64,000 bases of DNA. It comes from Lenzites betulinus (taxonomy: Eukaryota > Basidiomycota > Agaricomycetes > Polyporales > Polyporaceae). Shown piece after piece: positions 1 to 44,751 of this stretch. The position numbers and the translations under genes were made by a program. The number at the start of each line of letters is the position of its first letter. Position 1 is the first letter of the stretch. The DNA lies in contig JABYQU010000046.1 of assembly GCA_022264855.1 (NCBI GenBank), forward strand, positions 1 through 64,000, given 5' to 3'. The notes beneath the pieces were generated by a model, which ran no database searches, was not told the DNA's origin, and saw only the letters and a program-made list of their open reading frames with translations.

Positions 1-1
1 C

Positions 2-22: not shown

Positions 23-66
23 GTTACCAGCCAACCTCACTCTAGGACCGAGCAAGACGAGACAAG

Positions 67-4700: not shown

Positions 4701-6035
4701 GAGCACACGGACAACGAGACTGACGCACTTTTGAAACGATTCGAACAGGAGCCAATGTTCGTAGAGGTGATAAACGCCATCATGAACCTCGGAGCCAGTG
4801 ACGAACGAAGTGCACGCCGCGCGCGCCACCGCGCAGAGCAATACATCATCGACGAGGGCAAACTCTGGCGCTTGAAGGGCGGAGAGAAGGCTCGAGCGCG
4901 TACGCGAGTGGAATGTATCACAAAAGCTGAAGCTGTCCAAAAAGCGACCAAACAGCACGCAAGAGGCGGTCACTGGGGACGAGACGCTATCAAGATCGCG
5001 CTAACAGACAGGTATTGGAGCCCAAAACTCGACGCATCCATCATGGAAGGGATCAAACATTGCGGCAAGTGCAAAAACTTCGGAGCGACGCACTTACATG
5101 CTTTACTAGATCCAATCACAAGACGCCATCCATTCAAACTGCTCGTAGCTGACTATCTTTCGTTACCAGACGGCAAAGGAGGATACCATACCGTAGGCAT
5201 GTTCCTGGACACCTTCGCGCAACACTTGTGGGCGTACAAGTTCAAAACGGCAGGAACAGGGAAAACGACCGTTGAAGGGCTTCGAAACATATTCCAGAAC
5301 TTCACATTGCCGGAAACGTTCATGACAGACGGCGGTAAGCACTTCGATAATCAGGATGTACGCGCTTACTGCCAACAGTGGAATACCAAAACACAAGTCG
5401 TCGCGGCATACTCGCCGTGGGTGAACGGCCTCATCGAAGGCACCAACAAGCTCTTGCTGCATGTCCTCAAGAGGTTGTGCGCGCCAGACTTAGGAGAAGA
5501 CGAAGAGCACACGGGCACGCTGCAACAGGACTGGAGCAACCTACCGCGAACATGGCCAGATCACCTAGACGAAGCCGTTAAGTGTCTGAACTATCGCATA
5601 CTGCCAGCGCTGAAGTTCTCTCCCAAAGAGCTGTTATTAGGAAGAGTCGTAAACACCCCGCACACACCCGTCGAGCTCGCACAGCAACCGGTGTCAGCAG
5701 CAGAAGCAGCAATGCACGTAGCATACGTGGCGCAGCAACACCTGGACGGCTACAAAGAAGCAGTACATCACGCGATACAGCGGAAGAAGGCCTTCGACAA
5801 GAGAGTCCTCGCATCAAAGCCAGGCGAACAAGTTTTCGAAGCGGGGTCGCTAGTACAGGTATATCGCAGCGACCTGGACTATACATTCAAAACGGAGCGC
5901 AAGCTGTTACCGAAGTGGTCCACACCATACCGCGTGGTGAGTCGTGTCCAGAATTCGTACCGAATCTCTACGCTAGGGGGGGAGGATATCGCAGGTCTTT
6001 ATCATGCCAGACGACTGCGACTATTCACCAGCTGA
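1680..6035 (+). CDS. pol: Pol polyprotein of Ty3/gypsy element 1 (3' end altered by insertion)
   Basis: Pol is read by -1 frameshifting from gag; the open frame itself starts at 1389. Residues below count from that point. An aspartic-protease-like motif IDDGA (the usual D[TS]G triad is changed) lies near 206. The RT spans about 600-830 with FVDD at 775-778. RNase H follows with TDGSKDGFGA near 940. The integrase has an HHCC zinc region (HARGGHWG ... CGKC, about 1190-1230) and catalytic D1255, D1314 and E1350, the standard D-58-D-35-E spacing. These domains make cDNA and integrate it. The apparent stop (TGA, 6033-6035) lies inside palindromic element A, inserted at 6028. The original frame resumes at 8583 and meets TGA at 8627-8629, the first bases of the LTR of element 2, so the true C-terminus is also lost. 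Confidence 0.9.
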   Translation, partial: RVRVVGEWDQTTTLITDPKLAQMVPERASHALEDDNAVHSCEAFPAVKNVVSRTDACTSSTPHVGEVEHNQTVMLYSVDSEGNDAHESTPFICQFTLRNKKTGTAARVKGLIDDGAMVNVLDAELWPKIRDRIGCAEKSARKLRMANGAVVTSQGRWSGEFDFDGVRVQSTFEIFPSGGAWSFLVGKPLLERMRAVHDYDKDAIHVRDTKRTATLSNQRGRTWGDRALEARGLNLTLDAKMCTKEPRNESHSTPVTLMVNAKDSSNTLTENITPTEPTPMTKQVKHRVTIEEVEDEDSVIARQQRISDPPATAVGSQRGKQDKPRPPPVRKPARWVAGRRWPPSNGHSSASETPTTHAKNSSAINGEHDRERYIGPDAEEHTKDDLFEIPVTSVTSDDNNANDIYTRTSEPFKAQRVKAIVDAVQIGEDVTEAERKEITKLIAEFADCFALSVKEVTPVPGAIHKLNVPPDATFSKRIHQKPLTPPQREYVHKKIDELVEAGAIEPCTPDEVKCIAPITLAHKAHEGAGLTMDELQRRVNEECEAINKPAPFNVPKRAEGEARVHTTKPSERKWRICQNFGEINKVTEIAPMPQGDIRQKQQSVSGHRWVCTFDFASGFYAIVLADESRPYTCFYIEGRGYFRCVKMPFGLTGAPSAFAQLTATHMHDLIAKGIIELFVDDGATAGDEFNELLGRLRTILQRVRESGLSLSPSKCQWFMTNAVFAGASVGPKGVVPDRAKLTAVVDWKKPEDALNLVSFLGLTSHFRDLIKDYARIEAPLQDLLRDVHIPKAAKKGLYQRAMQNYKLHDHWTATHTEAFVQLKVILTSEPVLHRPLWDGTPFIITTDGSKDGFGAVLAQRANTTLPNGQTVKRTHPIAYASKRTSKTEEKYKSFISEFAALKFGLDKFADIIWGFPIEIETDCQALRDVLTNDKLTSTHARWRDGILAHQIVDVRHIPRKLNTVADGLSRVGENADRTPGDGSEWTVCEDWEATTGLVNDIFQVNDAEHTDNETDALLKRFEQEPMFVEVINAIMNLGASDERSARRARHRAEQYIIDEGKLWRLKGGEKARARTRVECITKAEAVQKATKQHARGGHWGRDAIKIALTDRYWSPKLDASIMEGIKHCGKCKNFGATHLHALLDPITRRHPFKLLVADYLSLPDGKGGYHTVGMFLDTFAQHLWAYKFKTAGTGKTTVEGLRNIFQNFTLPETFMTDGGKHFDNQDVRAYCQQWNTKTQVVAAYSPWVNGLIEGTNKLLLHVLKRLCAPDLGEDEEHTGTLQQDWSNLPRTWPDHLDEAVKCLNYRILPALKFSPKELLLGRVVNTPHTPVELAQQPVSAAEAAMHVAYVAQQHLDGYKEAVHHAIQRKKAFDKRVLASKPGEQVFEAGSLVQVYRSDLDYTFKTERKLLPKWSTPYRVVSRVQNSYRISTLGGEDIAGLYHARRLRLFTS

Positions 6036-6485
6036 TGTACTCCTGATGTATCAGGAACCGTTTAGGACTCCGCGCCGCTTTACATCAGGAACAGGAAGCG
6101 TTCCTGATGTATCATGGGCGGCCGGGAGCGCCAGCGCTGCCCTCCGGGACCTGCCTAATATGGTAGGCAGGCCCGGGGGACAGCGCTGGTGCCCCCGGGA
6201 GTCTCTAATCCGTTATCTAATGCAGATAATGGCATTATCTAATCTCCCCTGTACTTTCCCGCGCGCCTGTGCCTCCCTCGCAGCCACATCCCGATTAGGC
6301 AGGTCTGCCTCAGCCAGCCACCCCTGCCTGCTTGCCCGCCCTATACCTCGCTCAGTTCTCGGCCGATTTGCTTCAAAACTAGCGCGTTTTACTCGGGGGA
6401 ACCTACGCTACAATCGCGCGCAAACGAAACGGGAATCCGGTAAGTACTGACCGTGCTACAGTGGATACAGTAACAGGGTGAAAGC

Positions 6486-6527
6486 GGCGACAAAGAACGG
6501 ACGATATCTCGTCCGTTCTTTGTCGCC
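6486..6527. repeat. Perfect 19-bp stem hairpin in left arm of element A
   Basis: GGCGACAAAGAACGGACGA (6486-6504) is exactly repeated in inverted form at 6509-6527 around a 4-base loop. The counterpart in the right arm is at 8072-8113, and element C2 has the same hairpin at about 16711-16755 and 18307-18352. Confidence 0.9.
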
Positions 6528-6764
6528 TCGGCGTGCGAATTGCGTTCCCATCACGAGGGAGTTCAGCGCGTTCGAAAGAGCCCTTATGCACGCGAATTGG
6601 CGCACGGACGGTGGAGCTGCGCTCCGCCCACCCGGGAGGAGTGCAGCTCCTCCTCCTCTGCGCATATTTCATTCGATTTGGCTCGAGTTTGTTTCCTTCA
6701 GTAACTAATACATTATATTACACAGGAAAGACGTTTTAAAGACAACGCAGGGCCCAGAAACTCG

Positions 6765-6809
6765 TCGAGGAGGGTGGGTAGTAGTGTGACTACTACCCAC
6801 CTTCCTCGA
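6765..6809. repeat. 20-bp stem hairpin in left arm of element A
   Basis: The stem built on GAGGGTGGGTAGTAG pairs with CTACTACCCACC with one mismatch around a 5-base loop. The right-arm copy lies at 7789-7836 and the C2 copies at about 16995-17040 and 18026-18072. The stem is conserved while the loop changes. Confidence 0.88.
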
Positions 6810-7260
6810 TGTATATCTCTGCCAGTTCTGCGCGTATCGCTGCGCAGAAGGCACCGTCAGAACGCGGCGCAACACAGCGTTCTAACGGTGCCCTTTGCGC
6901 GTCGATCCGACCGCAGCTACCCTCGCAATACGGCATCCTGTGTTCCATACAGTGTAATAACATGCTGTAGCGATAGAACCATGTAGAGTCCTTCAAATTC
7001 AATTTGTTTCCTTCCTCATATCAGTGCTGGCCGTTGCTATGTGTACACCGGAGTATAGGACAATCGGAGGCCGTCCCGATGTGTAATCTACTTATCTATG
7101 ACCAGAATGTATACCCTTGCTGCGCACGATCCGCGAAACCGATTGTGATCAACGCCCGCATGCTTATTGCTACATAGAACCGCTAGATGTATACAGAATC
7201 TCAAGGGAAACGGACCAGAACTGACGGAGATATTGTGTTATCACTGCAGACATGCAGGTA

Positions 7261-7293
7261 GCCGCCCACCGTCTTAAGACGGTCTCGGGCGGC
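7261..7293. repeat. Apex hairpin of element A
   Basis: GCCGCCC (7261-7267) pairs with GGGCGGC (7287-7293) and encloses the self-complementary GTCTTAAGAC. It lies close to the symmetry point (about 7301). Related hairpins sit near the centres of C2 (17492-17524), C4 (23749-23784) and, in a diverged form CTGTAAGAC/GTCTTACAG, C3 (20474-20493). Confidence 0.8.
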
Positions 7294-7690
7294 TTCAGCA
7301 AGTCTGTATGTATAGCACAGTACATACAGACCCTGTAGAACACTTTGTAGAGCAGTAATTCGAGTTCTTCGCCGATTTTCACGTTCTTGGGCTCGTCTGA
7401 AAGCTGTATACGACTGCTATCTAGCCACCTGCTTCATGAATATATTTGTGGTCTCAGTAGCTCTGTATCAGCTAACTTAGTGTGCACTAGTTGCAGTTTT
7501 CGAGTTTTTAATAACTTCCTGTGTTTTTTGAGGACAGATGGATCTCCATTGCTATATAGGAGGTAGATATAGTACATTAGGAATCAAATAAATGTATGCA
7601 GTGTTCCAGAGTACCTGTGAAGAGATGGAAGGGGGGTGAGCAGCTGGGGGGGGAGGAGGAGCAGAGAGGGATAGCGACGCGCTGCGTGGT

Positions 7691-7767
7691 CGTATCGCCG
7701 CGCAAAAGGCAACGCCAGAGAGCAGCATTCCGCCGCTTTCTGGCGTTGCCTTTTGCGCGGCGATACG
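7691..7767. repeat. 33-bp stem hairpin in right arm of element A (GCGCAAAAGGC hairpin)
   Basis: The stem starts CGTATCGCCGCGCAAAAGGC and pairs over about 33 bases with one mismatch around an 11-base loop. The left-arm partner is the shorter hairpin at 6842-6900. The same hairpin, with variants of the core, recurs in C2 (17063-17139, 17937-18003), C3 (19713-19769, 21039-21095) and C4 (about 23250-23310), which makes it the best shared marker of the superfamily. Confidence 0.85.
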
Positions 7768-8626
7768 CGCCGAAACGGCAGTGCTATGCGTCGAGGAAGG
7801 TGGGTAGTATTTCACTACTACCCACCCTCCTCGACGCGCTTCTGGGCCGTAGTTTGCTCGTAAAACGTACTATCTGTGTGCTACAATGTATTAGTAGATA
7901 AAAGAAACAAAGACGAGCAAAAAGAACGAACAATGAGCACAGGAGGAGGAGCTGCACTCCCCCCGGGGTGGGCGGAGCGCAGCTCCACCGTCCGTCGGCC
8001 GTTTCGCGCGCATGCGGGCTTGTTCGAACGGCGGTGATTCCCTCTTGATGGGAAAGCAGTTCGTGCGCAGAGGCGACAAAGAATGAACGAGATATCGCCC
8101 GTTCTTTGTCGCCTCTTTTACCTTTTTACTGTATGTACTGTAGGGAAGTCATTACTTACCGGATTTCCGTTCCGTTTGCGCGCGATTGTAGCGTATTAGC
8201 ACCCGAGTAAGACGCGCTAATTTTTAAGTGAATCGGCCGAGAAATGAGCGAAGGAAAGCAGAGCAAGCAGGCAGGGGTGGATGGCTGAGGCAGACCTGCC
8301 TAATCGGGATGTGGCTGAGAGGGAGACAGAGGCGCGCGCAGGAAAGCACAGGGAGATGAGATAAGCACATAATCTACGTTAGATAAGAGATAAGAGCCTC
8401 CCGGGGGCGCCAGCACTGTCCCCCGGGCCTGCCTACCATATTAGGCAGGTCCCGGAGGGCAGCGCTGGCGCTCCCGGCCGCCCGTGATACATCAGGAACG
8501 CTTCCTGTTCCTGATGTAAAGCGGCGCGGAGTCCTAAACGGTTCCTGATACATCAGAACTACAACAGGGGCTGGACTATTCACACCAAGGCCGGGCACGC
8601 AGCTCGCAGCAAGCGAAGCGCTTCGC

Positions 8627-9496
8627 TGATACGGTAAGAGGTGCTCTGACGGCCGATAGCCGAGGGGTAGAGGACGTCTAGGTGTGTGATGAAGGGGAGT
8701 AAGGTCTCGAGCTCCCTAGGTTCGCTAGTAGGCCGGCCCGCGTACTGTTCGCGCGCTAGCAGAAGGGAAGCCTCTCGCGCACAAGGCAAGAGCGCGCGCG
8801 GACTCGCGCTGTAGAAGGGCGCGCGCGGAGGTAAGCTCGGTAACGCAACGCGCGCAGGAATAACGCAACGCTCGCAGTCAGCCGCGGGGCTTCGCAACGC
8901 AGTACGCACGCAGTAAAACGCAGGAGGAACGGAATAAACGCAATATACGCAACTGACGGTACGCTGTCACAGCGGAGAGGTCTCCAGTCGTCCTGCCTTG
9001 AAGGGGAAGCTGTTGCACGTTGAGAAGCGCGAGGGACACGTTCCCAGCAGTTGAGAGAGTGAGGGGTGGATTGTCTGGGGGGTTCGAATGCCCCGAAATG
9101 ACTATGTACAAGAATGCCCGCAGGCTGAATCAAAAACACGTGCTACCACACGGAAGATAAGCGGAAACCGGGCCCGGGATGCCTCGCGCGCCGGGCGCAC
9201 TCGCCGCGCGCGATCCGACTCTTCGCGCGCCTCGTGCGCGCGCCACTGATGCGCCCCGCGGACCCGCGCGCGCGAGCAGCTAGGGCAGAGGGCTCTGGAT
9301 AGCGACAGGCATCGCGCGCGCCGTGGTGAAGTGCCCGCGCGCACCTTGACCTTGCGCGCGATGGGCTACGCGCACTGCGCGCGCGACGTAGGGGGTACCG
9401 AGGTGTGCGGTGGGCTCGGCGCGCGCTGTGGTTGGCGTGCGCGCGCAAGGGTGGAAAAGGAGGGTTTCTGGCCTGGAACGCCTGTGGAGCGTATCA
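8627..9496 (-). repeat. 3' LTR of gypsy element 2
   Basis: This 870-bp repeat begins TGATAC and ends GTATCA and matches 26149-27019 with scattered differences. In the element's orientation it is the downstream LTR. The terminal inverted hexamer and TG...CA ends are typical of LTRs. Its first three bases supply the TGA that now ends the frame of element 1 pol. Confidence 0.88.
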
Positions 9497-9758
9497 TCGC
9501 ACACAACAGAACGCCGAAGGAGCACGAGACCCACCAAGCGCTTCCACTAGCGACGCGTAATCGTCGCATCTGTCATCGACAAGCTAAGTCCATCATATTC
9601 TTTGCAATAGTACTACGCGAAGGCGGGGCAACGCCAACGCGAACAATGCATAAAAAGCAAGCCGATAACAACAGCATCCGCAACGACCTCTCTTTTTTCT
9701 CCTCTCTTTATCCTTCACTGCATACGCAACACTCTGTTGAAACCACGTTCATTCCAGC
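9497..9758. other. Sequence between 3' LTR and the 199-codon ORF
   Basis: No gene is visible. A CT-rich stretch around 9688-9720 (TCTTTTTTCTCCTCTC) precedes the ORF at 9759 and resembles a fungal core promoter, but that is inference. Confidence 0.4.
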
Positions 9759-10358: not shown

Positions 10359-10545
10359 AGGGGGGCGCATGGGACAGGGAGACGCGGCAGGGAGGAGGAG
10401 TAGGAGAGGACAGGAGGACGGGCGCCTACCGGAGGCTTAGTCAGCGGGATCCCAGATAGCATCGTGCATGTACCAGGCAGACCTCAGATCGATCCACCAC
10501 CATCTCCGCGCACTCTGTTCTCTGGGTCGCGTGCTCTAGGCTAGA
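10359..10545. other. Purine-rich tract and junction with truncated pol
   Basis: Bases 10357-10423 are almost all G and A on the plus strand and could be a polypurine tract. The join to the pol remnant lies near 10553. Confidence 0.4.
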
Positions 10546-10708: not shown

Positions 10709-13429
10709 ACTTGTGGTTGCCACCATAATAATATAATCCCCCACCAGACTGGTGCACACCTCGTGTATTTTGTGATCACCACTTGTAATTGTTTAACGCT
10801 ACCCCAGCCATTGTATTATAAGTGTCAAGTATTATATTATAAGGACCACCTATTGTACAATCCCTGGGCAGTTTGTTTTTGATACTGTGGGCGCGTATTT
10901 GGGATTGTACAATCCCTGGGCAGTTTGTTTTATATTCTGGCAGCTGTGCCTGGTTTGTGTTCATCCATTATACAATCAGTGCCTGCTTGTAGGTCCCTGT
11001 TTACCGCTTAATGGGCGCTTTTTTGGCTTCCTAATAGGGTAGGCATACCAAATGACCGCATTTGGGCGCTTTTTTGGCTTCCAAATGGGGCAGGGGCCTA
11101 CCACCACCCCCTGGGGGCTCCCTTTTGGCCCCCCTGGGCGCATTATTGCCCTACTTTGTGCCCTATGTATATATGGTGATCATGATACATATTATGGTGT
11201 TCTGTGGGGGCTAAAAACCGACCAAAAGCAGTCAAAAATGCGAACCCAGGGCAGGGGTCAGCAGGTCCTGGTAGGTGCATGCAGCATATAAATGGTTCCT
11301 CTGGGCCCATTATGTTGATCAATATATCATTTGAAAGCTATAGCACAGGGCTTTCTGGGACAGCTATTTGCATAGCCCCCGATGCTGTACTGATGAAGAT
11401 ATGGCCTTTCGCATTTTCGCAAAAAGCAGCCGTTTTGTTTGCTCAATAGCTCCTGATCCAGGGCACATATAAATCCACCCTATACACCGTTAGATTTGTA
11501 TTTAGCAGACCTTTAGAACAGGCCTACTCTCAGGATATTCCATCCACATGTATTCTGTCCCTCCTCCTGCCTCCCTGCCAATAGATCGCCCTCCAGGGCC
11601 CTCAGTTCCTAATGGATTCCCTTGAAAGCCTTTGTAGTGTGTACTGGCAATATATCCATACATATTTCCAGCTTGGCATGATTTAGAATGGCCTACCCCT
11701 TCCGTGCCCTCTTGCTGTACATTTGGTGCACTTCCAGCTTGTTTGCTCCATAATATTATATCCTGTACAGATATGGCCCTGCTCTCTTTTGCATGTTGTC
11801 TGTGTATACTATAGCTACCAATAAATGTGCTCAAAAGTGTTATCCGACATCCGGATCTCTTATAGGCTCCTTATCAGTAGCCCACAGTGTAGCCCAATCT
11901 ATCGCGTTTTGGGGGCATATTATTTAGATCAGACTGCACATCTGTACTGGCATAGTGTTCAGGATTACATTGCACCAAACATCATGAGATTTGGTGGAGA
12001 AGTGATGGAGGTATGGAGGGAACACCTCAGAACAGCCCTTTGATGCAGTTGGTGAAGAATACATGAATGCACTGCTGTAAGCTGTGCTTGAGCATGTAGA
12101 CCACCATTTGGGATATTCTGCCCATACCTCCATCACTTCTCCACCAAATCTCATGATGTTTGGTGCAATGTAATCCTGAACACTATGCCAGTACAGATGT
12201 GCAGTCTGATCTAAATAATATGCCCCCAAAACGCGATAGATTGGGCTACACTGTGGGCTACTGATAAGGAGCCTATAAGAGATCCGGATGTCGGATAACA
12301 CTTTTGAGCACATTTATTGGTAGCTATAGTATACACAGACAACATGCAAAAGAGAGCAGGGCCATATCTGTACAGGATATAATATTATGGAGCAAACAAG
12401 CTGGAAGTGCACCAAATGTACAGCAAGAGGGCACGGAAGGGGTAGGCCATTCTAAATCATGCCAAGCTGGAAATATGTATGGATATATTGCCAGTACACA
12501 CTACAAAGGCTTTCAAGGGAATCCATTAGGAACTGAGGGCCCTGGAGGGCGATCTATTGGCAGGGAGGCAGGAGGAGGGACAGAATACATGTGGATGGAA
12601 TATCCTGAGAGTAGGCCTGTTCTAAAGGTCTGCTAAATACAAATCTAACGGTGTATAGGGTGGATTTATATGTGCCCTGGATCAGGAGCTATTGAGCAAA
12701 CAAAACGGCTGCTTTTTGCGAAAATGCGAAAGGCCATATCTTCATCAGTACAGCATCGGGGGCTATGCAAATAGCTGTCCCAGAAAGCCCTGTGCTATAG
12801 CTTTCAAATGATATATTGATCAACATAATGGGCCCAGAGGAACCATTTATATGCTGCATGCACCTACCAGGACCTGCTGACCCCTGCCCTGGGTTCGCAT
12901 TTTTGACTGCTTTTGGTCGGTTTTTAGCCCCCACAGAACACCATAATATGTATCATGATCACCATATATACATAGGGCACAAAGTAGGGCAATAATGCGC
13001 CCAGGGGGGCCAAAAGGGAGCCCCCAGGGGGTGGTGGTAGGCCCCTGCCCCATTTGGAAGCCAAAAAAGCGCCCAAATGCGGTCATTTGGTATGCCTACC
13101 CTATTAGGAAGCCAAAAAAGCGCCCATTAAGCGGTAAACAGGGACCTACAAGCAGGCACTGATTGTATAATGGATGAACACAAACCAGGCACAGCTGCCA
13201 GAATATAAAACAAACTGCCCAGGGATTGTACAATCCCAAATACGCGCCCACAGTATCAAAAACAAACTGCCCAGGGATTGTACAATAGGTGGTCCTTATA
13301 ATATAATACTTGACACTTATAATACAATGGCTGGGGTAGCGTTAAACAATTACAAGTGGTGATCACAAAATACACGAGGTGTGCACCAGTCTGGTGGGGG
13401 ATTATATTATTATGGTGGCAACCACAAGT
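10709..13429. mobile_element. Palindromic element C1 (near-perfect 1.3-kb arms)
   Basis: This 2,721-bp insertion in gypsy-2 pol has an exact 8-bp duplication GGACCAGC (10701-10708, 13430-13437) and termini ACTTGTGG/CCACAAGT. The arms (10709-12016 and 12122-13429, 1,308 bp each) mirror each other without a length difference, and their open frames translate identically. The loop is only 105 bp (12017-12121). It lacks the small arm hairpins of the other elements but shares GGGCGCTTTTTTGGC with C4 and a TTTGGTGGAGAAGT stretch near the centre with C3. The small ORFs in the arms are mirror copies with no recognised product. It is either the youngest insertion or has been homogenised. Confidence 0.88.
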
Positions 13430-16252
13430 GGACCAGCGCGTGCGCGCGCTGCGCGAAGTTGCGAATGAAGATGTGCGCAACCCCGATGGTGCCCAGGAAC
13501 GCGCGCACTTCGGAAAGGTCTTTGCATGGTCCCCAATTCTTGACGATCTCGACGCGCGACTCCTCGGGGAGACGTCCTTCGGGTGTACAACGGTGCCCGA
13601 CGACCATAATCTCGCGCCGGCAGACCATTGACTTTGTCCCTGAGAAAGTGCCTCCCGCGTACTTCATGCGCTGCGTAACGCGATTGACGTCTTGGAAGTG
13701 TTCCCACACGAAGCGGCGGATACCGGGGTTTGCGGAAATGGTCTTGTAGGTGCCATCCGCGCGCTTGTAGTCTGTCGCGGGACCTTTGACCGGTACGTCG
13801 TCGATGTAAGGAATGGTAAGATGAGGGATTTTGAGGCGCAGGATGTACGTGACGTCGTCATGGAAGATAGGGACCGAATTACACCACCCCATAGGCAGGG
13901 TACGATGGCGCAGCGCGCCAAAGGGAGTCTGGAAGGTGGTGAGGTCGCGCGAAGTGACTGAGATGAGCCGTTCGTCATAGCCGACATAGAGATCGAAGAT
14001 GGAACCACACGGGCGCCCTCCGAATTGCTCCGCGAGGTGGTCGGGCGTAGGAGGCACCCCGCTATGCTGGATAGTGACTTTGTTGAGCGGCTCCAGGCTG
14101 TGGACGATACGGAGGGAGTGTTTGTCCTTCTTCAGGACGCAGAACCAGCGCGAGCGGTAGGAGGAGTTGGATGGCTCGTACACGCCGGCCGCGATCTTCT
14201 TCTTGATGATGTCGCAGACCTCCTTGTAGAGTCCTGGAGGAATGGGGATGTTGCGCTCGACCCAGGGCGTGTGCGGGACCACCGGAAACTCCACAGGAGG
14301 GAAGAACTCGGGTTTGAAGCACCCGCGCTCGTCGTCGTTCCACGCGAAGGCCTCGTTCTGCTGGCTAAAGAAGTGATGAAGGAGCTTCTGTTCCTCTGGC
14401 CAGAGGAAGCCGCCGCCGTGAGCCTTGTCGACCGCCTCCATGCACTCCTGCGTATAGCGGCCCGTAGGTACAAACACGGGTGGGTGAGGACTGAGCGGCG
14501 GTATGCTCGCGAGAGGGTCGCCTGTGATGTTGCGCTCGATGCGAAAGTGTTCAGGCGACGTGCCGAGGACCGGGCGGACCTTGCGCGCGACCGGCTTGTA
14601 CTTCTTTTTGGCCGAGATGTACGCCTCGGTAAGTACGCCCGACCGTATTGGCTTCGCGCGGTAAGTCCATGTCGGTGGTGGAGAGGGGTCGCGCGATGCG
14701 TAGGCCAGTTTGGCCTTGGCGGGCGCGCGCGTTGGATGCGCGCGCGAGGAGTCGCGCGCGATGGGAGTCGAGCGCGCGGTGTCTTCCGCGCGCAATAACA
14801 CTGGGTCGCGCGCGGGGTATTGGTGGCTGGGGTTGCGCCCGCCTTGGAAGTAGAAGGACTAGGGAGTCCTTGAGACTGAGAGGAACCTAGAGGAGACATA
14901 GACGCGACCAGAGGAGCGGAACTGGACATAGACGGAACAAAGACATGAGGCGGGCGCGCGCTATAGGCGTCTTCATGGGGTTTTAGAGGCGTAGAGGGAG
15001 AAGGGGTTGCGCGCGGTGCGTCTCCATGTGGTTTTTCAAGTTTGTCGAGCAGAGATAGCACCTCTATAGGTAGTGCGTCGCAGGCAGAGAAATAGAGCGC
15101 GGAAAGAGGCAGAGATGGGTCAGGAGTCGGGGTATACGACGTGATGCGTGGCACGCCATCTTCTACAGTGATTACGCATGCGATCTCGCCATCCGGGACC
15201 TCAAGCAAGGGCTGGCTGTCCAAGGGGATGTCCGGCGTCGGAGGCACGAAAGCGCGCGCGCCCGCGCGCAATGGTGGGCACGGTCGCGATCGTTCCCGTG
15301 TTCGGACACACGATGGTCAGGGTCTGCTCCTCGTTAGTGAAGTTCTTGACGACGCTCTTGGTCAAAACGTCGAAGGGCCGACCCAGAAGGATGTCGTAGG
15401 CTGCATGACGAATGACGTGCACCTGCAGGTACAAGACAATGTCCGCCACTGCGAAAGGCACGTTCCGCACCAAGCCAAGCGACCGATCCACATCTCCGTT
15501 GGCGGACTGCATGTTAAGGACGATGGTCGGGTCATAGGCGAGCCGAAGAGCATGGCAGACGTCCTCGGACATGGCTACGATCTGAGAGCCCGGGTCGATG
15601 ATTGCCTCGACAAACTCCTTGTTGTCCACCAAGCCGACGATGGAGCGTAACGCGTGAGACTCCTTGGCGACAGTCAGGACATCGGGGTCGCTACCTGGCT
15701 CGAGCCGCTTGAGGTAGACTTCGTAGGGGTCAGGCACCACCACGCCCTCCGGGAGCAGCGGGTCGCCACTACAGGAGAATAGGGCAGGGTCGTCGGTGTA
15801 TTCCTCCAAGACCTCCTCGATGGTAGTGCAAGACGCCATCGCAATTACGCGCGTATCATCCGGCGCGCGTCCCTCGTTGCTACCGCGCGCGTCGGCTGGC
15901 GCGCGCGAATCGGTAGGGACGCGTTTCGGCGTGACTGCCTCGCGATAGCGCGCGCGAACCTCAGGGGAAATGGACAGGAGCTCCTCCGGTGTCAGGGTGA
16001 GCGTAGGGGCCTTCATGGAGCGCTCGAAGATGTCCTCCGCAAAGCTCGCACGGTAGACCGGCACTTGGGTCTTGTAGGCGGTGTCCTTGTCCTTCGGCGG
16101 TACGGGTGGCGCACCGAAGTTGCGCACGCGCGGAGGCGCATACGTTGCATCGCGCGCTGTCGCAAAGGGGTGTTCGCGCGAGGGTTCAGGGGTTGGAGAG
16201 GTGTGCGCGGCTATCGGCGCGCGCTGGTGCGGCGGCGGATCGCGCGCGGGCA
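13430..16252 (-). pseudogene. Gypsy 2 pol fragment 4 (protease and reverse transcriptase)
   Basis: Reading leftwards, an aspartic protease (AIIDPGSQIVAMSEDV, then AAYDILLGRPFDVL) is followed by a Pro-rich linker and the RT: PIPPGLYKEVCDIIKKK, RWFCVLKKDKHSLR, TLPMGWCNSV, and the catalytic box PYIDDV with YIDD instead of the usual YVDD. The frame changes near 15255-15275 and back near 14800, both in GCGCGC runs, so two compensating indels are likely. It meets C2 at the right (fragment 3) and C1 at the left (fragment 5), in frame in both cases once the palindromes are disregarded. As it stands it cannot make a complete Pol. Confidence 0.85.
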
Positions 16253-18815
16253 CCAGCTGTGGTAGTCGTAATGTATTATAAACCGTTCATGCGCCCGCGC
16301 AGCATTACATTATAAACCGTTCGTGTTCGTAATGTATTACGAGCAGCCGGGGACGCCAGCGCTGCCCTCCGGGACCTGCCTAATATGGTAGGCAGGCCCG
16401 GGGGACAGTGCTGGCGCCCCCGGGGGCCTCTAATCTCTTATCTAACATAGATAATGGCCTTATCTCATCTCCCCGGGACTTTCCCGCGCGCGCCTGTGCC
16501 TCTCTCGCAGCCACATCCCGATTAGGCAGGTGTGCTCTGGTCCTCCCTCCCCTGCGTGCCTGCTTCGGTTCTCCCTCGCTCAATTCTTGTCCGATTCGCT
16601 TCAAAACTAGCGCGTCTTACTCGGGCGATCTCAGGCTACAATCGCGCGCAAACGGGACTGGAATCCGGTAAGTACTGACTGTGCTACAGTACATACAGTA
16701 ACAGGGTATAATAGGCGACAAATAACGGGCGATATCTCGTCCGTTCTTTGTCGCCTCAGCGCGCAAATTGCTTTCCCATCAAGACGACGGTAAGCCCGTT
16801 CCAACGAGTCCCCACACGCGCAATTCTGCCCAAGGACGGTGGAGCTGCGCTCCGCCCACCCCAGGCAGGAGAGCAGCTCCTCCTCCTCTGCGCATATTCC
16901 ATTCGTTTTTGCTCGTTTTTGCTCTATTAAGTCACTAATACATTGTATGTCATGGGTACAACGTTTTACGAACATACTACAGCGAAGAAACACGTCCAGG
17001 AGGGTGGGTAGTAGTCCAACTACTACCCACCTTCCTCGACGCATATATCTGTCATTTCTGCGCGTATCGCCGCGCAAAAGGCACCTGCAGAAAGCGGCGC
17101 AACACAGCGTTCTGACGGTGCCCTTTGCGCGCCGATACGACCGCACGAACCGTCGCAATACGATATTCTGTGTTCCATGCAGTGTAATCACATGTTTCAG
17201 CGATAGATTCATGTGCAAGTCTTCAAATAACATTCTGTTTTCTTTCACTTATTAGTGTATGCCATCGCTATGTGTACACCGGAGTGTAGAACAATCAGAG
17301 CCCGTTCAAATGTGTAATCTACTTATCTATGACCAGAATGTACACCCTTGCTGTGCACGATCCGCCCAACCGATTATTATAAAAACGGGCACGATTAGTA
17401 CGCCATGGAGTCGCTATATGCGTACAAATTTGCAAGAGGAACGGACGAGAACGGACGGAAATATCGCGTTATTACTGTAGACATCCAGGTAGCCGCCCAC
17501 CGTCTTAAGACGGTCTCGGGCAGCTTCAGCATGTCTGTATGTACAGCACAGTATATACAGAACTTGTAGAACACTTTGTAGTACATAAATTCGAGTTCTT
17601 CGCCAATTTACATGTTTCTGGGCTTGTTTGAAAGCTGTATACATTGGCTATCGATGTATACACATCACAGATGTATTAGAGGTATACCTAGGTATGTAGG
17701 GATGAAATGAGTGTGCAAAACTCGCTGTTTTGCTCAGTTTTGCTCAGTCTATTGTTTATGCAGCACATATGAGTAAAGGTCATCATTGAATAGGTATATA
17801 CACTACATGAGATGTTAATAGACAAGTACATAGCATTCCAGAGTACCTGTTGAGAGATAGAAGGGGGGGTGAGCAGCTGGAGGAGAGGGAGGAAGAGCAC
17901 ATGTAGATAGCGACGCGCTACATGGTCGTATCGTCGCGCATAAGGCACCGACAGAAAGCTGCAATTCGCCGCTTTCTGGCGGTGCCTTTTGCGCGGCGAT
18001 ACGCGCAGAAACGGCAGCGCTATGTGTCGAGGAAGGTGGGTAGTAGTGGGACTACTACCCACCCTCCTCGACGTGTCTGTGGGCTGTAGTTCGTTGAGAA
18101 AACGTTATAATTGTGGAGTACAATGTATTAGTGAATGAATAAAGCAAGTGCGAGGAAAAAAGAATGAAATACGAGCACAGGAGGAGGAGCTGCACTCCCC
18201 CCGGGGTGGTCGGAGCGCAGCTCCACCGTCCGTCGGCCGATTTGCGCGCATGCGGGCTCGTTCGAACGCACTGAGCTCCCTCGTGATGGGAAAACAATTC
18301 GCGCGCAGAGGCGACAAAGAACGGACGAGATATCGCCCGTTCTTTGTCGCCTCTTCTGCACTTTCACTGTATCTACTGTAGAACAGTCAGTACTTACCGG
18401 ATTCCAGTCCCGTTTGCGCGCGATTGTAGCCTGAGATCGCCCGAGTAAGACGCGCTAGTTTTGAAGCGAATCGGACAAGAATTGAGCGAGGGAGAACCGA
18501 AGCAGGCACGCAGGGGAGGGAGGACCAGAGCACACCTGCCTAATCGGGATGTGGCTGCGAGAGAGGCACAGGCGCGCGCGGGAAAGTCCCGGGGAGATGA
18601 GATAAGGCCATTATCTATGTTAGATAAGAGATTAGAGGCCCCCGGGGGCGCCAGCACTGTCCCCCGGGCCTGCCTACCATATTAGGCAGGTCCCGGAGGG
18701 CAGCACTGGCACCCCCAGCTGCTCATAATACATTACGAACACGAACGGTTTATAATGTAATGCTGCGCGGGCGCATGAACGGTTCGTAATACATTAGAAC
18801 TACAACAGGGGCTGG
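16253..18815. mobile_element. Palindromic element C2 (same family as A)
   Basis: This 2,563-bp insertion in gypsy-2 gag-pol has an 8-bp duplication CGCGGGCA/CGCGGGGA (16245-16252, 18816-18823; one mismatch). Its ends are CCAGC/GCTGG with CTGTTGTAG close inside the right end. The iterons here are TAATGTATTA[CT]RAACCGT. The outer arms are virtually identical (an 87-codon mirror frame at 16408-16671 and 18394-18657 translates the same), while inner arms differ in hairpin loops. Hairpins lie at about 16711-16755, 16995-17040, 17063-17139 and their mirrors; the apex hairpin is at 17492-17524. The central region aligns by eye with that of element A. No protein gene is evident. Confidence 0.87.
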
Positions 18816-19207
18816 CGCGGGGAGGTCCGGCTTAGCAGCCTCGCGCGCTGCGCGCGCGGCCTCGCCACCAGCTGTGTCCGGGTATACAGGGGGCGCTGGG
18901 CCCGCGTCCGGTTGTGGAGCGTTTGTGGGAGCCACCGGCCGCCTCTGGAAGATACGTGGGGGCCTAGAAGTGATCTCGACTCCGTCAAAGGCCTGCTTGC
19001 CTCGCAGCGCGTACAGCTCGCGCTCCAACTGGTCGATGCGCGCGCCGGTGGACAGTTGGAACGTCGACACATTGATGGGCGCGCTCGGCACGACCTGGAG
19101 GACCATCTGGGCAGCGGGGGCCGGAGGGGCCCCACCCGACGCCATAGGATAGCGGCGGTACCACTCGAAGACCCGGTCACGCATTGTGAGCCCAGGAAGG
19201 TTGCGCA
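18816..19207 (-). pseudogene. Gypsy 2 gag fragment 3
   Basis: The frame read leftwards starts NLPGLTMRDRVFEWYRRYP and runs through a short heptad-like stretch (DQLERELYALRGKQ) to a Pro/Ala-rich end. It is the C-terminal part of Gag leading to protease. Disregarding C3 on its right, GSFVPRN runs directly into LPGLTMRDR, the arrangement usual in fungal gypsy Gags. On its left, PDLPA runs into RDPPPHQR of fragment 4. Confidence 0.8.
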
Positions 19208-21603
19208 CCATATGTTGTACCCATAATGTGTTACGAACCGTTTAGCTTCCGTAACCGTTTTACATTACGAACCGTCAGGGCTCGTAATGTGTTACGAAGC
19301 TCCGGAGAGCGCCCCGGGACCTTCCTAATTAGGCAGGCAGCCCGGGGGAGGCCTGTTATCTCCCCAAAGATAGCAGATATACCCAGATCTTACTGATTGT
19401 GCCCTTATCTCTTTAGATTAACTTGTTATCTCATCTCCCGGGTCCCTCCCCTGCCTCAATAGCCTCGCCACATGGGCGCTTATTTCGCGTTTTGGTGCGC
19501 TCCTCCTCCTGCTTCTTCTCCTGCTAGCTCACTCAGTTTTTACTCTATCAGGCTCTATCTAGGCTTGTTTGGAAGGCAATACAAATGCGAAAAATCGTAT
19601 ACAGGTTTCGCTAGACACAGGTAGGTACTCACATAAGTATCACAAGTGCTACTAGGGCGCTTCAAGCGACACAAAACAGGCGATAGCTCGCCCGTTTCGC
19701 GTTACAAAACCACGCGAAAGGACGCGTTAGAACCGTGCTTTCAGTGCGGTTCTAACGCGTCCTTTTGCGCGCAAAACGACACAGCGGTTCCCAAGTTATG
19801 CGTGCCCTTCCCCAGGAGCAGCATCCTTGGGAACATCTGGGCTGTTTCTCTTCCATTTTCTATCGCACATGTCTCATCTCTTGTATTTATACCATAGTAG
19901 TGTGCTCAAATGGATTCCACATACACGGAACCCGCCAATTCAGCTAAATCTAGTATAATATGGGTGATCATAGGACACCCTCCACACCCTCTCCCTTTGT
20001 TGATAGACCCCTTGTGACCTCTCCATACACCCTATGTATGCTACTACTAGTCTCCAATATATTTTAAACCCCTTCATTGCCTCTGACAGTGTGTCACAGT
20101 GTCTGCAATTTTAAAAAAGCGAGAAATACTTCTTCCTCCCTCAAAACCTCGATATCTCAGTGAAAAAGAGTCGTATCAATATTTTGTTTTTTGCAGCTGG
20201 TCCGTCTTGCATGTGTAAACAGACCCGTGGTCTTTGCGCCTTAATCGGTTGAGAACTGGTTCTTTGGCACCCTTGTCAGTTGTCAGCTATAGTGCCTGAT
20301 AGTACTTGATCCAGGCATGCGATAGTAAAACAAACTGTACCATTGAATAGACATTGAAAAGCCGAACATAACTCATTTTGAATCATAATATTTGGTGGAG
20401 AAGTCGCAGAGCTATGAGGAAAGTATCTAAGGGGTCTAGTTTGTGCTAGTGCATAGCTGTGTACTGTAAGACACTGTAAGACGGGTCTTACAGTCCCGGA
20501 GCATTGGTAAGCACAATATATGTATGTTCACACTCCAGAGCTCATAGCTCATTCATTTCTGGGTCGTTTCACATCGTTTCTTTTGCATTGATTAGCTACA
20601 TACGACGTCTACATGACCCAGGTATTAGAATTGATATTGGGTAGCATACTGGACGCCCATAGGGCAGATGATGTCAGAAGAAGAACTTGAATATATTCTT
20701 CATTTGAGACCTGGGTATCCTGAAACTTGGTATATACATATATGGGTGATAGATACACAGTCTGAGATAAACAGCGCCGGGGTGGGGCGTCAGGGGGGAG
20801 AAGGAAAGAGCAGGGAGGGGGGGTAGGGGGGTGTGCTATAGCTTGGGCTGGAACGTCTTCTTATGCTCTTTTTTGAGTGTTCTGAATGCTGTTCTTTACT
20901 TGAGGGGTTATATAGTACCTATAAATCAACTTTTAGGGCAATGTGACATGTTATGGGGGAGAAAAGAGCGAACTCCTCCAAGGATGCTGCTCCTGGGGAA
21001 GGGCACGCATAACTTGGGAACCGCTGTGTCGTTTTGCGCGCAAAAGGACGCGTTAGAACCGCACTGAAAGCACGGTTCTAACGCGTCCTTTCGCGTGGTT
21101 TTGTAACGCGAAACGGGCGAGCTATCGCCTGTTTTGTGTCGCTTGAAGCGCCCTAGTAGCACTTGTGATACTTATGTGAGTACCTACCTGTGTCTAGCGA
21201 AACCTGTATACGATTTTTCGCATTTGTATTGCCTTCCAAACAAGCCTAGATAGAGCCTGATAGAGTAAAAACTGAGTGAGCTAGCAGGAGAAGAAGCAGG
21301 AGGAGGAGCGCACCAAAACGCGAAATAAGCGCCCATGTGGCGAGGCTATTGAGGCAGGGGAGGGACCCGGGAGATGAGATAACAAGTTAATCTAAAGAGA
21401 TAAGGGCACAATCAGTAAGATCTGGGTATATCTGCTATCTTTGGGGAGATAACAGGCCTCCCCCGGGCTGCCTGCCTAATTAGGAAGGTCCCGGGGTGCT
21501 CTCCGGAGCTTCGTAACACATTACGAGCCCTGACGGTTCGTAATGTAAAACGGTTACGGAAGCTAAACGGTTCGTGACACATTATTGGTACAACAGCTGC
21601 TGG
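19208..21603. mobile_element. Palindromic element C3
   Basis: This 2,396-bp insertion in gypsy-2 gag has an 8-bp duplication GTTGCGCA/GTTGCGCG (19200-19207, 21604-21611). The right end carries CTGTTGTACC in inverted form; the left end is slightly eroded (CCATATGTTGTACC). The iterons are TAATGTGTTACGAACCGT. Arms of about 625 bp (to about 19832 and from about 20976) match closely, around a 1.1-kb AT-richer centre. Hairpins lie at 19665-19705 and 19713-19769 with mirror copies; the apex-like hairpin is at 20474-20493. TTATCTC/GATAAG motifs are frequent. No protein gene is evident. Confidence 0.85.
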
Positions 21604-22427
21604 GTTGCGCGGGACGAAACTTCCATTAGCTAGGACGATCCTGCCTTCTCCATTACGCGTGATACGCCCTTCCTTGATATCTTCTTCGGCATGCCTGCAG
21701 AAGCGCACCTGACAGCCCGCGTCGCCGCAGTAGTGGCAGTAACCACTGTTAGGCCGGTAGTCGTACTGGTTCTGACCGCCGATAGGGCCACCCGCGGCCG
21801 CGCGCTGTGCGGAAGTCATCGCCGCGGGGTTGACGCCCTGGGAACTGCTGCTGGGCCCGCTCTGCTCGACCATGGACTTCGCGAGAAGCTTGAGGAGCGG
21901 CGCGAGGTCCTCTACCTTCAGATCGGCTGCGCGCGCGCCCGAATTCTGAAGGGCCTGCGGCGCGGGGGCTGCGGCTGCCGGTAGATTGACCATCGCACCT
22001 GTCAAGACATACTCGGCCGCGCTGAGGACCTTATCCGGGTCGTACGGCTGGTCGGCCGGCTGATCCGGGAACTTGAGCTGCAACCGGTTCCTGACCTGCG
22101 CGCGAAGGGGCTCGCTGATGCCTTCAATGAAGAGACGATCACGCTCGGTGAGGCTGTAGACTCCGGACTTGATGAGGCTTGCAGTGATCGCCTTGAACTC
22201 GCGATGATACTCGGCCATCTCTGCGATAGAGTTGATGACGGACGCGCCGCGTCGGAGCGCGAGCGCTTGGGCATCCCGCACGAAGTAGGCTTTAACGACC
22301 CCTGCGCCCGGGTAGAGTTGGATGAGCGCGGCCTTGAATTCGGCGTACGTGGCCACCCCCTCCGACTCGGGCAATGCCTCCGCCAAGTCTGCAACGTCGA
22401 TGGGAAGGTACCGGACGACCCAGCTCC
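21604..22427 (-). pseudogene. Gypsy 2 gag fragment 2 with zinc knuckle
   Basis: Read leftwards, the frame goes VVRYLPIDVADLAEALPES, through the helical Gag/capsid region (EFKAALIQLYPG, RDRLFIEGISEPLRAQV), to a CHYCGDAGCQVRFC Cys cluster and the segment ITRNGEGRIVLANGSFVPRN. This is the central and nucleocapsid part of Gag. It is bounded by C4 on the right and C3 on the left, and the reading frame stays open throughout. Confidence 0.85.
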
Positions 22428-25400
22428 ACCTCCTGCTGTAACATTGATGCATCAGAGACCGTACAGCGCCCAGGCACCGTGATGCACCAAAGACCGTATA
22501 TTTAAGCGCCCAAAAAGCGCCCGTCTGAGATTCAATTAACATGTCTTAATTAGGCAGGAGGCCCCGGCAAGGCCAGCAGGGCCTGTTATCAGCTTTGATA
22601 ACAGGCGCTTTTTATCAATCCTTCCAAAAATGGTATGTACTAGTATCTCTTATCTCCTCAGCGCTTTTTTGATCATATCTGTGTATCTATCTAATCTCTA
22701 GGGCGCTTTTTTGGCCATTTCCGGCCTCCTCCCTAGGTATGCCCCCCCTCCCTTGCTCTATCTTGCTCAGTTCTCACCCGTTTCGCTTCGTTCTTTTTGC
22801 ATTAGGTGGCGTTCTCAAATGCGATCAAAACGCGCTACTTTTCGCGCCGTATAGTGAGCTGCAAAAAGTTTCGAAAAAACGCGCAGATTGGGCGCTTCCG
22901 GGACAAATTCGCCCACCGCCGGACCAATTTGTGTCGTACCGCGCCCGTGCTAGGCTCGTTCGAAAGCGATTAATAACCGCTTTCGAACGAGCCTAGCGCG
23001 ACGCGAATCGGACAAGAACCCGTCGAGACGTCCTCCTGCCAATGGGCAGGAGGACATCTTGCAATATCTCCCTCAGCTCTGGTTCGTTTTGCTTGGTGTT
23101 TGCTGACGAGTATACCTGCCAACAGCTGCTAATTAGATATACCATTCGTCTTGCGTGAAACAAACATAGGGCTGCCCAGGGAAGCGTCCAGTGTTCACCT
23201 ACTGGGCGCTTCCTTGTGCAATACCTCCTCCAATTTGCGCCCGATTCCCGCGCAAAACATGCCGTCGGAAAGCGGCTGAACGCAGCTTTCCGACAGTATT
23301 TTTTGCGTGGCAAGGCGACCACCCTGTGTGTTACAAGTTGATGTTCTCCCCCTGCCCTCTCCTCACATTTAGACTTACTCTCCACTTCTTCCACAGCAGG
23401 TAGTAGAGTATTACAGCCCCACAGATAATGCTTATACAGTGTATTAGAATCCCCTGAGGGTGTTTCAAGGTCTGTACAGTATATAGAACATAATACAGTG
23501 CTTAGATACTGCTTGAAACCCCTGAAACAGCAAAATGTCGCCCATATTTTACCATTTAGACAGTCTGTACAAATATATATATTACCAGATGTATACAGGT
23601 AGATTGGCACAGTCTATAGCTTTGTAACAAGCCTAATATCATACTGATAGGATGAGTAATGGCTGAGATATGTATTAGAGGCATAGCTATAGTTAAAGGC
23701 TTGCAGTGCTTCAGGTTTTGGCATGCTGTGGCTGCAAAACGGCCCATAGCCGCCCACATCGTCTTAAGACGCTCCACGGGCGCCTATTTACCCTCCTGAG
23801 GGTATAATACAAGTAACTATAGCATAAGACGTCCGTTTCCCTTGTAAATTGGTACACATCCTCGTATATATGGACGACACGTATGTACCAGTTTTCGCGT
23901 GCATTGAAGCATTATTGAGAGTGTAATAAGCGAAGAAAAGGCGGCCAAGTAAAAATAGCGTACTGAGACAGCCAATGCTCGTACTGCGACGCAAAGTACA
24001 TCGCCGGAAAGCGGCTGCACACCGCTTTCCAACGGTGTACTTTGTGCCGCGCTCGGGCCAAAACTGGCGATGCAATTGCTTGTGGAGGTGCCCAGTGAAC
24101 GAGCACTGGACGCCTCCTGGGGCAATTTGACCTCGTTTTTACACGGAAAGAATTGTACACCTATTTCGAAGACATCAGTGGGTACAATAGTGAAGAAACA
24201 CGAAGGGAAACGAGTGAAAACTGGTGAAGATATCGCAGGATGTCCTCCTGCCCATTGGCAGGACAACATCTCAGCGAGTTCTCGTTCGATTCGTGTCGCG
24301 CTAGGCTCGTTTGAAAGCGATGGATAATCGCTTTCGAACGAGCCCAGCGCGACCGCGGTGCGACGCAAACTGGTCCTGCGGTAGGCCAATTTGTCCAGGA
24401 AGCGCCCAATCTGCGCGTTTTTTTTCGAATTTATTTGTAGCTCACCGTATGCCTTCGGTAGGGGCGCGTTTTGATCGCATTTGAAAACGCCACCTAATGC
24501 AAAAAGAACGAAGCAAAACGGGTGAGAACTGAGCAAGATAGAGCAAGGGAGGGGGGGCATACCTAGGGAGGAGGCCGGAAATGACCAAAAAAGCGCCCTA
24601 GAGATTAGATAGATACACAGATATGATCAAAAAAGCGCTGAGGAGATAAGAGATACTAGTACATACCATTTTTGGAAGGATTGATAAAAAGCGCCTGTTA
24701 TCAAAGCTGATAACAGGCCCTGCTGGCACGGCGGGCATTGGGCGATTGCGGATAGGCTAAAATGGGTACAAAAGTCGAGACAAGAGGAAAAGTTTTGGCG
24801 CCTTTGGAATACCATTTTGTGTCCTGTGAAAGTTAATCTGGTTTCTCCATTTTCCTTCCTTTTCGACCATCGTTCATATTTTAACAAACGACGGCCGAAA
24901 ATTGCGCTGAAAGGCAGACAACAGGATGCGTTGAAACCCGCTTTTGTCCAGTGCACAAATGGGATCAGTGGAAAAAGCGCTGATCGGTTTCAAAAGCCAG
25001 CCGAAAGGTGTGTGCAGGTTTTTCTTTGGGAGCGTCTAACAAGTATACTGGCAAAAATCCATCGAAAAAGGAGAGCGTTTGTTAACCTTTGTTTGCATCC
25101 CGGACAAAATGGAATTAGTAGTTTACTAACAATCGAAACCCCTCCCGGACAAAAACGGGGGAAATTGTTAGCTATCTGACGTGATCAAAATCAGACAAAA
25201 GCCGGACGTAACCAAACCTGTTCGCCGGTGCAAAAAGCACACAAAAGCGGTCGAGGAGTTAACCTCTTGTCTCGACTTTTGGACCCATTTTGGTCTATCC
25301 GCAAAGGTCTAATGCCCGCCGTGTGGCCTTGCCGGGGCCTCCTGCCTAATTAAGACATGTTAATTGAATCTCAGACGGGCGCTTTTTGGGCGCTTAAATA

Positions 25401-25472
25401 TACGGTCTTTGGTGCATCACGGTGCCTGGGCGCTGTACGGTCTCTGATGCATCATCGCTACAACAGCAGCTG
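22428..25472. mobile_element. Palindromic element C4 with a nested TIR element
   Basis: This 3,045-bp insertion in gypsy-2 gag (about 2,445 bp without its nested element) has an 8-bp duplication CCAGCTCC/CCAGCTCT (22420-22427, 25473-25480). Inside the ends is CTGYTGTA. The iterons are GATGCATCAGAGACCGTA and TGATGCACCAAAGACCGTA, so all palindromes except C1 share the pattern TRATGYRYYA...ACCGT. An 18-bp perfect hairpin lies at 22951-22995, others at 23030-23055 and 23250-23310, and the apex hairpin at 23749-23784. Mirror frames at 22739 and 24560 begin MPPLPCSILLSSHPF. No protein gene is evident. Confidence 0.85.
24727..25323. mobile_element. 597-bp TIR element nested in C4
   Basis: Roughly 60-bp terminal inverted repeats start CACGGCGGGCATT and end in the inverse. 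A 3-bp duplication TGG (24724-24726, 25324-25326) flanks it. The empty site survives in the other arm of C4 near 22575-22590 (inverse of CCCTGCTGGCCTTGCC), which proves the boundaries. No ORF of note. CAC ends and a 3-bp duplication fit a non-autonomous CACTA/EnSpm-like element. Confidence 0.85.
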
Positions 25473-36037: not shown

Positions 36038-36099
36038 CCTGAATGGGATCGTGAGCAGATGGCAGACCAGCAATACATGATGTCAACCCATAGGTACAT

Positions 36100-44750: not shown

Positions 44751-44751
44751 C

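Follow-up and report, generated by a model that had tools for sequence, protein, structure and literature searches.

What moves a large transposon that has no gene of its own? The question is raised by a window of 64,000 nucleotides from the polypore Lenzites betulinus (positions 1-64000 of contig JABYQU010000046.1, here C50, 333,891 bp, in an assembly of 37.4 Mb and 108 contigs), in which five gene-free insertions with long inverted arms lie between positions 6026 and 25472. The original prediction took them for an independent superfamily of giant palindromic transposons. Giant palindromic transposons they are, by the standard of miniature inverted-repeat transposable elements (MITEs), with many copies, target duplications and empty sites in the genome. 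Their independence did not hold: elements encoding a KDZ transposase share the ends of the A, B and D types, and the tips and duplication length fit the published Kyakuja elements. We consider it quite probable that the palindromes belong to the KDZ group as DNA transposons that are non-autonomous, with Kyakuja as the most likely lineage. Read from their sequence, the insertions A1, A2, B1 and D1 are most likely trans-mobilised, non-autonomous Kyakuja-like KDZ elements.

Self-comparison of the window recovers all five insertions, and re-measurement agrees with the sizes first given (2397-3046 bp). No strand is assigned to a whole palindrome.

6026..8573, no strand: A1, A-type palindrome; 7-bp duplication GACTATT at 6019-6025 and 8574-8580; arms ~885 bp
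6026..6120, + strand: A1 left outer end; tip CACCAGCTGATGTA, motif 19 bp inward; mirror end 8479-8573; A-type ends common to KDZ element C22
10709..13429, no strand: C1, near-perfect palindrome; arms 1322 bp, centre 79 nt
16251..18814, no strand: A2, A-type palindrome; 7-bp duplication GCGCGGG at 16244-16250 and 18815-18821
19206..21602, no strand: B1, B-type palindrome; 7-bp duplication GGTTGCG at 19199-19205 and 21603-21609
22427..25472, no strand: D1, D-type palindrome with nested insert; 7-bp duplication CCAGCTC at 22420-22426 and 25473-25479

The short centre once ascribed to all five is found only in C1. The centres of A1, B1 and D1 are long: ~760 bp in A1, 1147 bp in B1 (between 625-bp arms that are 99% complementary) and ~670 bp in D1 (between ~886-bp arms, nested insert left out). 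That nested insert measures ~596 bp (about 24728-25323) and has 61-nt inverted ends and perhaps a 4-bp target duplication, TGGC. Three long open reading frames (ORFs) tested inside A2 and D1 gave no Pfam match, in keeping with the claim that the insertions are gene-free. A shared subterminal iteron was likewise confirmed, as the motif TRATRYRTYA..AACCG, which A1, A2 and B1 carry at each end, 19 bp inward of the tip; D1 bears a variant, TGATGCATCAGAGACCGT, and the motif was not found in C1.

Ends common to palindromes and KDZ-encoding elements

The Pfam KDZ model (PF18758) matched the genome at 77 places, none of them inside the palindromes, so by this search the palindromes do not encode the transposase. 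Ends of the A/B/D pattern number 175, and among the 100 listed there are 42 convergent pairs, 34 spanning 2.1-3.2 kb and eight longer. Four of the eight long pairs enclose KDZ matches (C22, C79, C51 and C33) and four do not (C19, C26, C50 and C52, the last two being probably unrelated ends). C33 is not counted as a KDZ partner because its KDZ gene sits in a nested insertion with its own ends and flanking repeat. That nested element (C33:46505-57898; L048, L049) lies inside a B-type palindrome, has ends CACCTGATCATCACAG and is flanked by an 8-bp repeat, GAGATAAC, longer than the 7 bp of the others.

There are thus three KDZ-encoding elements, of 12.6-14.4 kb: C22 with A-type, C79 with B-type and C51 with D-type ends. 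Their terminal inverted repeats measure 898, 344 and 439 bp, respectively, and no second set of long inverted ends was found inside them. Among their ORFs we found matches to CxC2 (C22 and C51) and to KDZ (C51 and C79; that of C22 comes from the genome-wide model search), with a match to the RNase H1 N-terminal domain in one ORF each of C22 and C51. A protein search with the KDZ ORF of C79 returned 328 proteins, with a KDZ domain in 120 of 120 among the matches listed.

The A-, B- and D-type ends are common to palindromes and KDZ-encoding elements, with a resemblance that covers the outer ~75-100 bp and is lost deeper inside. Counted inward from the tip in steps of 25 bp, identity runs 88, 96, 96 and 68% for A2/C22, 100, 100, 96, 88 and 40% for B1/C79, and 100, 84, 92 and 52% for D1/C51. 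Across 30 extracted KDZ loci, C1-type and D1 sequence was not found, and B1 matched only one (L038), over its outer 93-100 bp. A KDZ transposase produced by the separate 12-14 kb elements would act in trans on such ends: it would recognise the terminal ~90 bp (the tip CA[CG]C..TGNNGTA, followed by the subterminal motif), excise the palindrome and insert it elsewhere with a 7-bp target duplication. Such mobilisation is what the general behaviour of cut-and-paste transposons would lead one to expect.

The KDZ elements here do have long terminal repeats, and the arms could instead be such repeats, left over when a formerly complete KDZ element lost its middle. A giant parent of D1 seemed available in C26, which resembled a 19.6-kb version of it with arms 92-95% alike. 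This candidate was rejected: the junction has an overlap of 8 bp and the repeat GAGGGTAT on its flanks, which identify C26 as a D-type palindrome with a later insertion. Beyond their outer ~75-100 bp the palindromes are also unlike C22, C79 and C51, and box 1, a 16-bp signature of the arms (see below), was not found in those three. We judge an origin by internal deletion improbable.

The insertion in C26 (C26:2039-19196; L056-L058) is 17 kb long and occupies the centre of the palindrome. Its ORFs, 10 of 40 of which were tested, match a Plavaka transposase, a clathrin adaptor small chain, an RTC4-like domain and DUF6532, and it may carry captured host genes. Later insertions of this sort also sit in C33 and C63.

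Target duplications, empty sites and copy number

Each insertion had been credited with an 8-bp target duplication, which a common tip register does not bear out. The register was re-derived from 35 elements: eight A-type loci (A1 is L001), eight C1-type loci (C1 is L039), A2, B1 and D1 of the window, the large elements C22, C79, C51, C26 and C33, and 11 copies with ends only. All 35 have the tip CA[CG]C..TGNNGTA or CAC[CT]TGTGG and hence CA..TG termini, the tip pattern itself starting with CA. Exact duplications of 7 bp flank 24 of the 35, including the KDZ-encoding C22 and C79; exact ones of 8 bp, the length that ordinary hAT or Zisupton elements would call for, flank none (0/35), and neither do longer ones. 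As a control, left and right flanks of different elements agree in 8 of 1190 pairings. Because L042, L043 and L045 share one insertion site, the 24 exact duplications stand for 22 independent sites, and this trio would supply six of the eight control matches. Among the 11 elements without an exact repeat, L044 and C34 miss by one base and C1 of the window has 6 bp; for C1 the duplication depends on the register, being 8 bp (GGACCAGC) around ACTT...AAGT or 6 bp (GACCAG) around CACTT...AAGTG.

According to a 2025 survey (PMC12730594), Kyakuja of Laccaria have 7-bp duplications and CA..TG termini, Zisupton has 8 bp, and the TET-bearing transposons of Polyporales are all Kyakuja. The 7-bp duplication therefore points to Kyakuja as the probable lineage. 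The same length is reported there for hAT7 of rust fungi, and Galileo has duplications of 7-8 bp together with long repeats (PMC4168063), which raises the question of whether another superfamily (hAT7, P/Galileo-like or Mutator/foldback) moves the palindromes and the KDZ genes are there by chance. The 27 ORFs tested of the 70 in C22, C51 and C79 gave KDZ and CxC2 matches, however, and no hAT, P or Mutator Pfam match, though no genome search was aimed at those transposases. We regard this alternative as very improbable, more so than internal deletion.

To find empty sites, the joined flanks of the five insertions, each with one copy of the duplication, were compared with the genome and 40 of 135 candidates scored. 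Sites alike at 218-220 of 220 bases number at least 12 for A2, at least 13 for C1, at least 14 for B1 and at least 16 for D1, and the best A2 site is 100% identical over 220 bp. A full empty site of A1 was not found in this search, its flanks matching only piecewise. The empty sites of A2, B1 and D1 keep their order and spacing (e.g. C12:76317, 75933 and 75117), and therefore all three sit in one copy of a repeated element.

Genome searches with the elements confirm that there are many copies, which excludes a chance origin of the palindromes. In addition to the A/B/D pairs, 69 C1-type ends make 32 pairs (31 spanning 1.9-2.9 kb, the last 13.7 kb) and an end type E makes six pairs of 2.4-2.7 kb and one of 0.9 kb, for at least 71 paired palindromes in total. 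The uniform size claimed for the insertions holds within a type. A-type copies measure 2548-2564 bp in nine of nine cases, and 29 of the 32 C1-type end pairs span 2.66-2.86 kb, with 1.9, 2.6 and 13.7 kb for the remaining three. The 13.7-kb copy contains a nested 11-kb insertion (C63:104615-115570; ends L073 and L074) with a 9-bp flanking repeat, GCATTTGGG. Four C1-type copies (L042, L043, L044 and L045) share their site of insertion. For 1.5 kb to either side their flanks agree at 98.9-100%, and by this likeness they are a duplicated region; a D-type end lies ~276 bp from at least three of them.

Pairs of A-type copies (L001-L008 and A2) differ by 332-527 substitutions and only 5-15 insertion or deletion events over 2.55 kb (16 pairs, from 17 of 36 listed, with L001/L002 excluded), unusually few such events for non-coding DNA. 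Decay by repeat-induced point mutation or at methylcytosines was considered as the source of this divergence at constant length and is unsupported, as the same 16 pairs show 175-271 transitions against 157-261 transversions.

C1 is only proposed as a relative because no KDZ-encoding element with its ends was found; its membership in the KDZ group is suggested by the form of the tips, the duplication length in its relatives and box 1. Its tips (CAC[CT]TGTGG) differ from the TGTTGTA tips of the other types, it lacks the subterminal motif, and 72 and 69 end matches yielded no KDZ partner. C1 and its relatives might then be a different kind, moved by another transposase, and only the A, B and D types would belong to KDZ. 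Nine C1-type relatives (L041, L042, L043, L045, L046, C97, C72, C98 and C46) nevertheless have an exact 7-bp duplication, the tips share the CA..TG form, and box 1 is oriented as in the A and B arms; a separate kind is a possibility that we find rather doubtful.

Several points weigh against a KDZ assignment of the palindromes as a whole. Eleven of the 35 elements have no exact 7-bp duplication, the KDZ-encoding C51 among them. No KDZ-encoding element was found with C1-type ends, in the two sets of end matches just given, or with E-type ends. The strand of the KDZ gene relative to the CACC/CAGC tips differs in C22 from that in C79 and C51. A KDZ match between shared ends is an association, present in three elements only, and not proof of mobilisation. 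The Pfam tests covered only 10 of 23 ORFs in C22, 10 of 23 in C51 and 7 of 24 in C79 (ORFs of at least 150 amino acids in the fetched stretches). Kyakuja of Laccaria, finally, are described in the survey as having no terminal inverted repeats, unlike C22, C79 and C51 with their 898, 344 and 439 bp (PMC12730594).

Boxes, hairpins and changes in the arms

Between the ends lie arms that, to judge from their sequence, are entities of their own with boxes and hairpins and not leftovers of the KDZ elements found here. Box 1, the 16-bp signature CCTAATNNGGYAGGCA, occurs at 114 genome sites, against 0 for the reversed control pattern. In the window its copies are the following.

6154..6169, + strand: box 1, A1 left arm; mirror copy 8430-8445, - strand
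11030..11045, + strand: box 1, C1 left arm; mirror copy 13093-13108, - strand
16379..16394, + strand: box 1, A2 left arm; mirror copy 18671-18686, - strand
19324..19339, + strand: box 1, B1 left arm; mirror copy 21469-21484, - strand

Of 100 listed places, 95 keep one of a few fixed distances to an A-, B- or C1-type end (111, 120-121, 321-322 or 364-366 bp in 93, and 270 and 316 bp once each), and the remaining five fall within B-like matches. Box 2, GGGCGCTTWTTT with one mismatch allowed, stands 269 bp from both B1 ends, 306 bp from both C1 ends and 275 bp from the left end of D1; it also occurs once each in C22 and C51, far from the ends. Box 1 is missing from D1 and box 2 from A1 and A2, and neither was found in 38 kb of window outside the insertions. 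The internal blocks that C1 was said to share with the other insertions come down to these two short boxes, and no long blocks were found.

Each A-type arm also contains up to six local hairpins. Those of A1 are given here.

6081..6900, A1 left arm stretch: five local hairpins, at 6081-6111, 6122-6198, 6486-6527, 6765-6809 and 6842-6900
7691..8518, A1 right arm: five local hairpins, at 7691-7767, 7788-7837, 8069-8116, 8401-8477 and 8488-8518

Counted at a single threshold, they number 4.5-5.7 per kb in the left arms of A1 and A2, 3.4 per kb in D1 and roughly one per kb in B1 and C1. The centres of A1 and B1 yielded none, nor did 3-kb stretches from the bodies of C22, C79 and C51, the left terminal repeats of these three, or window positions 1-6000, 8600-10700 and 13440-16240. 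The outer sequence retrieved from C97 (386 bp) and E_C63 (201 bp) was equally free of them, and positions 26-64 kb of the window gave a single hairpin. Statistics were taken on 16 arms from eight A-type elements, excluding L002 (a near duplicate of L001) and L047 (dropped from the A-type set, its far end not being a tip). With the structure derived from the same alignment that was used for counting, pairing holds in 95.3% of the cells of 136 pairs, and in 41-49% once the structure is shifted by 1-3 columns; helix 6 reaches only 85.8%. Cells changed on both sides number 24 (shuffled mean 8.7, attained in 0 of 500 shuffles) and pairs with both-sided change nine (mean 6.1, attained in 11 of 500). 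Further pair types show no excess, at 32 against a shuffled mean of 33.4 (attained in 445 of 500 shuffles). Columns within hairpins are on average 94% identical, those between hairpins 86%.

Selection on the folded architecture, which the uniform size had been taken to suggest, thus finds some support for the local hairpins in each arm and none for the large palindrome: in nine of nine A-type copies the left and right arms agree with each other at no more than 79.7-95.5%. Paired stems could also be maintained without selection, by copying from one half to the other.

The ends look as if they had been exchanged between families. Elements at C24, C63 and C19 resemble B1 inside of about position 89 (83-89% in end pieces), with 48-72% per 25 bp over the outer 125 bp, and C1 and C97, whose cores are 95% alike, agree at 44-68% per 25 bp over the outer 275 bp and then at 100 and 96%. 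Faster change of the ends alone could imitate exchange; we favour exchange because the borders of identity are sharp. Two elements, L004 and E_C63, have the same tip at both ends and no duplication, as would be expected of recombinants between copies.

Some arms look homogenised as well. In the A-type copies L004 (95.5%) and L006 (93.3%) the two arms are closer to each other than to the arms of other copies (at most 90.6 and 87.1%, respectively); the remaining seven of nine A-type copies fail this test. In eight full C1-type copies the two arms agree at 98.3-100%. Between L039 and L043 there are 26 places changed symmetrically in both arms and 0 changed asymmetrically, and the symmetry varies by pair (L039/L046, 31 symmetric and 17 asymmetric; L039/L044, 3 and 22); it may be inflated by assembly, single-base gaps standing at variable positions in L042, L044 and L045. 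In C31, C97 and C98 the outer arm parts are identical within the element over 377, 374 and 327 bp, and C31 and C97 agree at 76-100% per 25 bp.

A tentative and rather speculative extension is that the palindromes are one gene-free lineage that outlives its helpers. The arms, with their hairpins and signature boxes, would be kept and the outer 90-300 bp, read by a given KDZ transposase, replaced whenever another KDZ family becomes active; as copying can run between the arms, an end newly acquired by one of them would spread to the other, and the palindrome would be a device for changing transposase, with hairpins that serve copying or bind a host factor. Exchange of ends, arm-to-arm copying and a function of the hairpins are less supported than the shared ends, the duplication, the empty sites and the copy number.

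Known systems and surroundings

The palindromes resemble MITEs in having no genes, inverted ends, a target duplication, a narrow size range, many copies and ends common with an autonomous partner, and differ in being several times longer and in their hairpin-bearing arms. MITEs are usually shorter than ~800 bp, a length that the palindromes exceed. With Kyakuja-1_LB and -2_LB of Laccaria bicolor, also from Agaricomycotina, they share the 7-bp duplication, the CA..TG termini and, through the elements with the same ends, the KDZ transposase; those two, as the survey describes them, have no terminal inverted repeats, unlike palindromes of 2.4-2.8 kb with long inverted arms and no coding sequence (PMC12730594). 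KDZ1-KDZ3 of Cryptococcus neoformans (KDZ transposase, 9-11 kb, terminal repeats of 139-241 bp, duplications of 4-8 bp) are comparable to C22, C79 and C51; they differ as active autonomous elements with mostly 8-bp duplications, and the portions of that report consulted mention no palindromic hitchhikers (PMC12810828). Galileo of Drosophila, in the P superfamily, likewise has long terminal repeats that are foldback-like and variable in structure, copies of which only the terminal repeats are left, duplications of 7-8 bp and ends more conserved than the rest; it is an insect element with a P-type transposase, unlike KDZ here, and the available part of its description mentions no hairpins or signature boxes (PMC4168063). 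In a brown alga, giant KDZ elements are reported together with non-autonomous giant families (PMC12477816). Among the matches listed in the open-licence literature, no title or abstract opening deals with fungal KDZ elements that are palindromic and lack genes.

An abundant and hitherto uncharacterised class of repeats in a polypore genome is in this way tied to a known transposase group, and KDZ elements would be able to have giant gene-free hitchhikers, with matched helper and hitchhiker ends in A2/C22, B1/C79 and D1/C51. What goes beyond the known kind is the 16-bp arm signature and the conserved local hairpins, together with what looks like exchange of ends and homogenisation of arms. If ends are exchanged while arms persist, this would show how a non-autonomous element survives the loss of its helper. 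The long similar arms also make the palindromes candidates for causing inversions.

As to the surroundings, an Rfam search of window positions 5900-25600 matched no family. The left part of the window contains Gypsy-type retroelement ORFs; A1 sits in the 3′ part of a Gypsy-type pol ORF, and the ORF adjoining A2 matches a gag-type aspartyl protease. The right part has three HET-domain ORFs (33641-36073, - strand; 42336-44891, - strand; 52482-54902, + strand), with many similar proteins from the same species among the matches listed.

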